From: Desulfuribacillus stibiiarsenatis
GTDB lineage: Bacteria > Bacillota > Bacilli > Desulfuribacillales > Desulfuribacillaceae
Assembly: GCF_001742305.1 (NCBI RefSeq)
Contig: NZ_MJAT01000038.1
Span: 62,001 to 126,000, forward strand
Length of the DNA stretch: 64,000 nucleotides
Reading direction: 5' to 3'
Part shown: one piece after another, positions 7,029-54,622 of the stretch
How positions within the stretch are numbered: position 1 is the first letter of the stretch
How the letters are laid out: every line of letters begins with the position of its first letter
Position numbers and translations under genes: made by a program
The notes under the pieces: generated by a model
What the model was told of the DNA's origin: nothing
Databases searched by the model: none
Seen by the model: only the letters and a program-made list of their open reading frames with translations

Positions 7029-7271
7029 ATGGGTATCGGTCAAGAGCGTCCAAGTAACTTCTTAGTAGTACCTGAGGCTTACCAAGCATTAGATCAATTC
7101 AAGTACGAAGTAGCTTCTGAACTTGGAATTCAAACTCCACAAAACGGTTACTGGGGTACAATGACTTCTCGCGATTGTGGTGCGGTAGGTGGTCATATTA
7201 CTCGTAAGCTTGTGAAGCTTGGAGAACAACAACTAATGGGTGGTTCTTCTTCTTCTTCTAGCACATTCTAA
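7029..7271 (+). CDS. Alpha/beta-type small acid-soluble spore protein
   Basis: An 80-residue alpha/beta SASP. These proteins saturate forespore DNA, shift it to an A-like form and protect it from UV, so damage takes the form of spore photoproduct. Family signatures are FKYEVASELGI (containing the germination-protease cleavage region) and GYWGTMTSRDCGAVGG then ITRKLV. The ribosome site AAAGGAGGTG is near perfect. The C-terminus has an unusual GGSSSSSSTF tail. Its DNA-repair partner SplB is encoded at 52.0 kb. Confidence 0.95.
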   Translation: MGIGQERPSNFLVVPEAYQALDQFKYEVASELGIQTPQNGYWGTMTSRDCGAVGGHITRKLVKLGEQQLMGGSSSSSSTF

Positions 7272-52025: not shown

Positions 52026-53051
52026 TTGAAACGTTTTCGGCCGGAACAAGCCTTTTTCGAAAAAGAAGCTCTCGAATACCCACTTGGAAAAAGAATGCAT
52101 ACATTTTTACAAAAACATAGTATCCCAATTACAATCATCCCTTCCCATAATCGAGTCACTGGAATTCCAGGTGCAAACCCTATGGAAGCTTATCGGAATG
52201 CTAAGCGTACAATCGTCGTTGGAATCAAGCGAACGATGGAGTTAGATATTTGTAAACCTTCAGCAAACTATCAATTTTCCCTCTCAACGGGCTGTGTCGG
52301 TGGATGTCATTATTGCTATCTACAAACAACAATGGGCAAGAAACCATATATACGTATTTATGTAAATACAGATGAAATCTTTGATAATTTGAATCAATAT
52401 ATTGAAAAGCGAGCACCAAGACTCACGTTTTTCGAATCCTCAAGTAGCTCAGATCCAGTCGGTGTAGAACATATGACAGGTTCTTTAAAAAAGGCCATCG
52501 AGTTTTTTGCTAAATCAAAATATGGTCGCTTACGAATTGTTACAAAGTTTGCGCAAGTAGACTCTTTACTAGACATTCATCATAATCAACATACCCGTTT
52601 CCGTTTCAGTTTAAACTCAGATTATGTCATACGAAATTTCGAACAGATGACAGCAACACTTGAGGAACGTATTGAAGCTGCTGGAAAAATCGCACAAGCT
52701 GGCTATCCATTAGGCTTTATCTTAGCTCCCATCATGCATTATGAAGGATGGCAGGACGAGTATTCATATATGCTTTCCCACTTAAGTAAAACTTTAGCTA
52801 ATACAAGCGTAAAAGACTTAACATTTGAGTTAATCCAATATCGTTTTACAAAGGCAGCGAAAAACATTATTCTTGAACGTTTTCCTAACACGAAATTAGA
52901 TATGGATGAATCGAATCGAAAATATAAGTGGGGCAAATATGGGCGTGGAAAATGGGTCTATCCTGATGAGAAATCAAAAGAGTTAGACCAGTTCATACGC
53001 CAACAAATCAAAGAAAAATTCCCTGCAGCAAGAGTCCAGTATTTTACATAA
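52026..53051 (+). CDS. splB: Spore photoproduct lyase homologue (SplB) with altered active site
   Basis: A radical-SAM enzyme of 341 residues that reverses the spore photoproduct (5-thyminyl-5,6-dihydrothymine) at germination. Starting at TTG 52026 (GGAGGGA 5 bp upstream) places the cluster cysteines at 90, 94 and 97 (CVGGCHYC), as in B. subtilis. The family's C-terminus (YKWGKYGRGKW...VQYFT) is intact, and Tyr96 and Tyr98 are kept. However the H-donor Cys expected near 141 (B. subtilis FEASCTSD) is Ser here: the DNA reads FESSSSSD (Ser140). An extra Cys76 lies in LDICKPSA. Confidence 0.88.
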   Translation: MKRFRPEQAFFEKEALEYPLGKRMHTFLQKHSIPITIIPSHNRVTGIPGANPMEAYRNAKRTIVVGIKRTMELDICKPSANYQFSLSTGCVGGCHYCYLQTTMGKKPYIRIYVNTDEIFDNLNQYIEKRAPRLTFFESSSSSDPVGVEHMTGSLKKAIEFFAKSKYGRLRIVTKFAQVDSLLDIHHNQHTRFRFSLNSDYVIRNFEQMTATLEERIEAAGKIAQAGYPLGFILAPIMHYEGWQDEYSYMLSHLSKTLANTSVKDLTFELIQYRFTKAAKNIILERFPNTKLDMDESNRKYKWGKYGRGKWVYPDEKSKELDQFIRQQIKEKFPAARVQYFT

Positions 53052-53077: not shown

Positions 53078-53482
53078 TTATTTATGCTTGATAAGGGTAT
53101 CAAACGTCACCTTCTCAAGTTCTTCGATTAATTTTTGGTTAATGGTCTTCCACGCCGGATGTGTATCACAAGTTTGGGTTCTGTCACAACGCATAGAACT
53201 TTCTATACATCGATTTAAAGCAATTGGACCTTCCACGGCTTCTATCACATGACGGAAGTTTAATTCTTTCGGATTTCTTAGTAGACGGACACCTCCGCGG
53301 GCACCACGAATTGTTTCTAGAATACCTGAGCGGACTAACATCTGCACAATCTTCGTTAAATACACTTCAGGGATATTTTGAGCGCTTGCAATTTGCTTCG
53401 TTGGCACTACTGCATTAGGTATTTGTTTACTTAATTCTATCACTGTTCGAATGGCATAATCGCCTTGTTTGGTTAGCTGCAA
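53078..53482 (-). CDS. Rrf2-family iron-sulfur regulator
   Basis: A 134-residue regulator. The winged helix has AIRTVIELSKQ, PTKQIASAQNIPEVYLTKIVQ and RGARGGVRL. Three cysteines (92, 99, 105 in CIESSMRC...C) would bind an Fe-S cluster. This resembles IscR, NsrR or a related Rrf2 protein. No isc or NO-detoxification genes are adjacent, so the regulon is unknown. Convergent with splB. Confidence 0.86.
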   Translation of the reverse strand: MQLTKQGDYAIRTVIELSKQIPNAVVPTKQIASAQNIPEVYLTKIVQMLVRSGILETIRGARGGVRLLRNPKELNFRHVIEAVEGPIALNRCIESSMRCDRTQTCDTHPAWKTINQKLIEELEKVTFDTLIKHK

Positions 53483-53623: not shown

Positions 53624-54622
53624 TTAAAGCTTCTTTAATTTGTCTTTATATGTCTGTTCATCAATCTCTCCTGCAATTAACTGCCTACGAAGCTCTTTTT
53701 GATCTTCCGTGGCAACTGGAGCAGCTTTTTTCGGTGATTGATTTACTATTTTGTTGTCCTGCTGAGTTTTCGAAGCAACTTTCACTTCTTTTTTCGGTTC
53801 TTGCTGCTTGGCTTGCTTAGTTTTATTCTTTTGCTTTTTCGAGTTGTCTGTTGGACCTAGTTTTAATACAAAGAAAAGAATAATCGCTAGAATAATTATG
53901 AAAGCAACATAACCTACAGCTTTAGAGTCAAAATCACTTCCGCCTGCTTGTCCACTTTTATCTAATGGTTTATTGGTAGGAACATTGTCCGCTTTATCAT
54001 ACTCGATCGCTACATTCACCGGATTGTCTGCATTGACGTTCGTATAGTTCCCTTCTTTTAATGCAAGCTCCGCAGGTTCAACCTTAGCGTTTCTACCAGC
54101 CGGCGGCACAATCACATTAGAAACAACCTTTTCCACAGTGAATGGCGGTGCAAATTCAAAAGAAAACGATTTACGTATGCCATCTAAAGCAAATGGGCTG
54201 TAATAATATTGAACTACCAACGAATAAAGTTCTTTTGGTGGAATTGGCTGTTCTCTTAAATCTACGTGAATCACTCTATCACCTAGCACATGTGGGGCTG
54301 GGAAATACTGTCCAGGTCCACCAGATTTGCCAGTGGCAAATACATAGAAATTCGGTTCATTTGTTGGTGCCGGGAAACTAAAGGTAGTTAATTGTTCATC
54401 TGTATTGTTGATAATATCTACTTGATTAATGACAAGTACTGCTGGAATTTCTGGATTCGGCCAATCCACTGGTTGATCATATTCTGGTCGAATCGAGATA
54501 AATACCTCTTTTACCGTAAAATCCGTTTGTTCAGCTGCTACCATACTTGGTTGAACCATAGTGGCAACGAGCAGAGTGAATATGAACAAAATAAATAATT
54601 GCCTTTGTTTCAAAACCCTCAT
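53624..54622 (-). CDS. Secreted, membrane-anchored protein with SHOCT-like tail
   Basis: Unrecognised 332-residue protein. A signal peptide (about 1-30, LFILFIFTLLVATMV then SMVAA) is followed by an extracytoplasmic beta-rich domain of about 200 residues. Then come one membrane helix (about 238-260), a long Lys/Gln-rich cytoplasmic linker, and a final KELRRQLIAGEIDEQTYKDK stretch. That last stretch has the look of a SHOCT oligomerisation motif. Alone, with its own terminator. It may be a surface sensor or an assembly factor; no function can be assigned. Confidence 0.7.
   Translation of the reverse strand: MRVLKQRQLFILFIFTLLVATMVQPSMVAAEQTDFTVKEVFISIRPEYDQPVDWPNPEIPAVLVINQVDIINNTDEQLTTFSFPAPTNEPNFYVFATGKSGGPGQYFPAPHVLGDRVIHVDLREQPIPPKELYSLVVQYYYSPFALDGIRKSFSFEFAPPFTVEKVVSNVIVPPAGRNAKVEPAELALKEGNYTNVNADNPVNVAIEYDKADNVPTNKPLDKSGQAGGSDFDSKAVGYVAFIIILAIILFFVLKLGPTDNSKKQKNKTKQAKQQEPKKEVKVASKTQQDNKIVNQSPKKAAPVATEDQKELRRQLIAGEIDEQTYKDKLKKL

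Follow-up and report, generated by a model that had tools for sequence, protein, structure and literature searches.

A spore photoproduct lyase from an order of Bacilli with its putative hydrogen-donor cysteine at the Clostridium-type position

In Bacillus the spore photoproduct lyase (SPL) works through a sequence that includes SAM cleavage, abstraction of H6(proR), scission of the C-C bond, return of a hydrogen from a cysteine and return of the radical through tyrosines (PMC3742179). The cysteine in question is Cys141 in B. subtilis, and the question raised by the present locus is how an SPL may complete this chemistry when a serine stands at that site. The gene lies in a 64,000-nucleotide stretch of the Desulfuribacillus stibiiarsenatis genome (contig NZ_MJAT01000038.1, positions 62,001 to 126,000), called here the window, and the features concerned are listed below.

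52026-53051, plus strand: spore photoproduct lyase gene (SPL, splB homologue), 341 amino acids, TTG start, TIGR04070 match
52251-52253, plus strand: TGT codon of Cys76, the putative donor of the hydrogen atom; S76C of 4RH0 is its aligned counterpart
52293-52316, plus strand: radical-SAM motif CxxxCxxC (C90/C94/C97), overlapping Tyr96, from translation and alignment
52311-52319, plus strand: relay tyrosines Y96 and Y98, both present here and near-invariant among the 284 SPLs compared
52443-52445, plus strand: Ser140 codon AGT, equivalent to the B. subtilis Cys141 site, from translation and codon reading
7062-7235 (approximately), plus strand: alpha/beta-type SASP gene, PF00269, 93.1 bits (G000:C37:69062-69235)

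An intact lyase gene with a serine at the Cys141 site

The open frame runs over 341 codons without internal stop, is preceded by GGAGG upstream of its TTG start, and encodes the only SPL of the genome. The protein matches the NCBIfam family TIGR04070 (photo_TT_lyase) with 504.9 bits against a cut-off of 400, over positions 1-338 of 338. Its AlphaFold2 model (pLDDT 90.3) could be superposed on the crystal structure 4RH0 over 338 residues at 1.5 Å with a Z score of 46.7, the next-best fold reaching only 13.9; judged by this model the protein has the SPL fold.

Residue numbers are the same in the Geobacillus and the window enzyme, while Cys141 of B. subtilis corresponds to position 140. The two proteins share 53-54% identity, and in their gapless alignment C140 of Geobacillus stands opposite S140 and S76 opposite C76. 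The loop in the window enzyme reads F136 E S S S140 S S D143 (codons TTC GAA TCC TCA AGT AGC TCA GAT), and there is no cysteine anywhere between F136 and D143. The original prediction had reported a serine at the Cys141 site and radical-SAM cysteines at 90, 94 and 97, and the alignment, the AGT codon and the translation bear out both readings. Besides these three cysteines the protein contains a single further one, Cys76 (TGT, in LDICKPSA). In its fold, cluster motif, Y96/Y98 and C-terminus the window enzyme resembles the B. subtilis and Geobacillus SPLs; it differs from them in that their donor cysteine (C141/C140) lies across the pocket, and in having C76, Q83 and G93 in place of S76, A83 and H93.

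Since Cys141 is essential in B. subtilis (PMC3742179), its absence could mean that the gene has decayed, is damaged or was misread in sequencing, and this is the sole point in favour of such a reading, to which we give a practically negligible chance. All 46 near-invariant residues, those shared by more than 97% of 284 SPLs, are retained, both relay tyrosines included, which makes decay unlikely. The window's order is represented in the collection by two genomes of two genera, and the SPL of the second genome (G001), which is 77% identical, also has C76/S140 and also AGT at codon 140; a sequencing or strain artefact is thereby ruled out, and the consistent pairing of Ser140 with Cys76, which it had been proposed to look for in close relatives, was found. 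Between the two genes the identity at first, second and third codon positions is 78/91/45%, so that changes are concentrated at third positions and purifying selection on this SPL family is indicated; dS between them is saturated. The earlier statement that the protein is intact and decay unlikely was thus confirmed by the full frame, the retained residues and the signature of selection.

The substrate can also be expected in this organism, as was originally argued from a retained alpha/beta SASP: SASP creates the condition for spore photoproduct, and the genome holds three PF00269 matches, the one listed above and two elsewhere.

Two neighbouring genes were recorded. One (53078-53482) encodes an Rrf2-family regulator, and the other, close to it (53624-54622, minus strand), a 332-residue protein of no assigned family with a hydrophobic start, a charged Lys-rich tail and a very weak NCBIfam match.

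Positions 76 and 140 across the SPL family

SPLs were surveyed from Bacilli, from the wider phylum and from the class of a C76-bearing relative (G041), altogether about 280 distinct sequences, and residues 76 and 140 were read in the numbering of the window enzyme. Every one of the 162 distinct Bacilli SPLs outside the window's order has S76/C140. Outside Bacilli the opposite state prevails: C76 occurs with S or A at 140 in 18 of 18 distinct SPLs of the G041 class and in 99 distinct SPLs from other Bacillota, 85 having A and 14 having S at 140, the single exception being one S76/C140 sequence (L203). With distant paralogues left out, C76 accompanied by A or S140 is therefore found in 117 of 118 distinct SPLs outside Bacilli. 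Both members of the window family have C76/S140. If the Bacillus type is defined by S76 with C140, and the Clostridium type by C76 with A or S at 140, the window enzyme falls outside the former and within the latter; its Ser140 is the less frequent variant, Ala being the commoner clostridial state.

Columns 76 and 140 split the two SPL types with zero overlap, the comparison setting 162 S76/C140 sequences against 115 that have C76 and A or S140, in addition to the window pair. No true SPL with both or neither of C76 and C140 was present among the roughly 280 distinct sequences, 33 further loci gave no exception to the rule, and a two-cysteine intermediate sought in further classes was not found. 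True SPLs carry exactly one of the two donor-site cysteines, and this strict exclusivity means that one cysteine is always retained. The types are strongly separated at further positions too, among them 83 (A/S versus mostly Q/E) and 93 (H versus nearly always another residue), H93 being also present in several C76 enzymes.

It follows that the lack of Cys141, which had been taken as exceptional, is ordinary in the wider SPL family, being the standard condition of Clostridium-type SPLs, whose cysteine is described in C. acetobutylicum as Cys74 (PMC5368176). Likewise Cys76, originally regarded as a novelty, turned out to be the normal state of non-Bacilli SPLs. The C76-type arrangement itself is already known; what is modestly new is its occurrence in a probably early-branching order of Bacilli, together with the family-wide pattern.

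The only sequences outside the two states are distant paralogues (23-33% identity), which were not counted as true SPLs. Three of them (L244, L245 and L246; about 31% identity) have the radical-SAM core and Ser140 (AGY) in common with the window enzyme; they differ from it in having neither C76 nor C140 and in additional cysteines at 101, 106 and 311 of the alignment, and belong to a different family. In genome G250 at least one of the three adjoins a true SPL. Two SPL genes look broken, one (G155:C2:34389-35395) with two in-frame TAA codons in its C-terminal part and another (G502:C1:2823018-2824019) with one in-frame TGA.

Cys76 as the putative hydrogen donor

In the SPL of C. acetobutylicum the conserved cysteine is C74, located on the side of the pocket opposite the tyrosine, and the enzyme yields about 80% TpT and 20% TpT-SO2- (PMC5368176). 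In the surveyed Clostridium-type SPLs the donor cysteine, numbered from most of the nearest starts, falls at 74-77; from the alignment and this numbering of other clostridial-type enzymes C74 most likely equals C76 of the window. Thus the substitute donor proposed in the original prediction occupies a position to which the donor role had already been ascribed in the other half of the SPLs. Both enzymes belong to one family with, most likely, the same chemistry, and in each a conserved cysteine, in the window enzyme the putative donor, lies across from the relay tyrosine at the clostridial position and not at the Bacillus 141 site; the window protein differs in being overall nearer to Bacilli SPLs, and its host belongs to Bacilli.

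An additional parallel comes from protein engineering. The C140A/S76C variant of Geobacillus SPL was made and its structure solved, as the title of the 4RH0 entry ('C140A/S76C mutant with bound AdoMet') states, and according to citing reviews a cysteine relocated elsewhere in the Geobacillus active site restores activity (PMC5682303, PMC9692996). The window enzyme has its candidate donor at the same position as this G. thermodenitrificans mutant (4RH0, 4RH1), with 54% identity and no gap over 340 residues; unlike the mutant it is natural, has S140 in place of A140, and carries Q83 and G93 where the mutant has A83 and H93. It can thus be regarded as a natural Bacilli instance of a donor arrangement earlier engineered in Geobacillus SPL.

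On these grounds we consider it highly probable that the window gene encodes a functional Clostridium-type SPL using Cys76 as hydrogen donor. The 5'-deoxyadenosyl radical would take H6(proR) from the spore photoproduct, after which the C-C bond would be broken to leave a thymine allylic radical. Cys76, which faces the Bacillus Cys141 site from the other side of the substrate pocket, would give its hydrogen to this radical, and Tyr98 and Tyr96 would pass the radical back so that SAM is regenerated. The donor role of Cys76 is well supported by homology: the hydrogen return is deduced from the homologous enzyme of C. acetobutylicum, from the rescue achieved by engineering and from the strict either/or occurrence of the two cysteines, and the suggestion of Cys76 as a likely substitute gains from the same three arguments. 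With a putative quenching cysteine at the Clostridium-type position, the window SPL is most likely a normal enzyme.

It might be supposed instead that a solvent thiol or a tyrosine supplies the hydrogen and that the protein itself lacks a thiol donor. The C141A mutant of Bacillus SPL does still turn over, at 0.14 per min, about a third of the wild-type rate of 0.41; nevertheless it yields mainly adduct, and C141A spores are UV-sensitive (PMC3742179). Moreover, a family in which a cysteine is retained at one of two sites in every member speaks against dispensing with it, and we regard a donor-free enzyme as very improbable.

Placement of the window enzyme and probable relocation of the cysteine

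The evolutionary step of the argument is weaker than the chemical one, owing to the outcome of the AU tests and to the resolution of the RpoB tree. That tree places the host inside Bacilli (99/99), but the branching point of its order within Bacilli is not resolved; that this class is the one with Brevibacillus was read from G022 and L041, whose coordinates are identical. In a careful maximum-likelihood tree of SPLs, from which columns 76 and 140 were excluded, the window pair is the sister of all S76/C140 Bacilli SPLs (97/86). The window enzyme has the clostridial state at 76, 83, 93 and 140 and is Bacilli-like at N58, H95, Q271, W302, K304 and Y305, a mixture that appears to be explained more readily by an early-branching lineage than by transfer. 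It is most likely that the window's order, a rare and probably early side branch of Bacilli, has retained the older C76 and that the other Bacilli moved the donor to 140 after the split.

Two other histories, both of which leave Cys76 as the donor, have to be weighed against this retention. Cys76 may have been re-acquired from an S76/C140 Bacilli ancestor, through two single-base changes, TCY to TGY at codon 76 and TGY to AGY at codon 140; such a reversal would agree with the quick tree, where the window pair is nested beside L247 (SH-aLRT 81), with AU tests in which a nested position among the Bacilli was not rejected (p 0.08 and 0.21), and with an S140 codon, AGT, which is one base away from Cys. 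The careful analysis speaks against it, since in 99% of its 200 bootstrap trees the S/C Bacilli SPLs cluster together to the exclusion of the window pair, and Q83 and the non-histidine residue at 93 are likewise in the clostridial state. Nor is the AGT codon a sign of a past cysteine, because Ser140 is encoded by AGY in every C/S-type SPL (42 of 42 loci, and 6 later loci) as well as in the three distant paralogues. We therefore hold re-acquisition to be unlikely. The gene could also have been transferred from a C76/S140 lineage outside Bacilli, and grouping with the G041 class was not rejected either (AU p 0.18). Transfer seems still less probable than re-acquisition: the closest relatives by tree path are Bacilli, many non-core positions are Bacilli-like (those named above), and both genera of the order carry a C76/S140 SPL.

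If C76 was retained, the codons allow the change in the remaining Bacilli to be followed. Cys140 is encoded by TGY, and Ser76 of Bacilli-type SPLs by TCN in 180 of 182 loci; given AGY for Ser140, one base change at each of the two codons leads from C76/S140 to S76/C140, presumably by way of an intermediate that had the two cysteines at once.

The exceptional S76/C140 sequence outside Bacilli belongs to the following locus.

L203:1-1014, minus strand: non-Bacilli SPL (genome G331) with S76/C140; its relative L356 (G721), from the same genus, is 93% identical

L203 groups with the non-Bacilli SPLs in the tree (98). Both proteins combine S76/C140, A83 and H93, as in Bacilli, with the clostridial background residues E58, G138, R277 and Y307. 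The possibility that L203 had taken up a Bacilli segment by recombination was considered and set aside: in 30-residue windows its identity to the two types is similar throughout, with no clear import. It seems that this lineage relocated the donor cysteine independently. As A83 and H93 are shared along with S76/C140, positions 76, 83, 93 and 140 look coupled; this pattern is suggestive, coming from two relocations only, which is not statistically secure, and H93 also occurs in several C76 enzymes.

We lean slightly towards a model in which the donor cysteine has moved on two or more occasions, on the stem of Bacilli and in the lineage of L203 and L356, within a coupled module of positions 76, 83, 93 and 140. 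The window's order would then represent the pre-relocation stage of Bacilli, its AGY Ser140 being one base from Cys and the change traceable as two single-base steps. Across Bacillota the position of the donor is a strict either/or, and residues 83 and 93 are indicated as partners in the switch.
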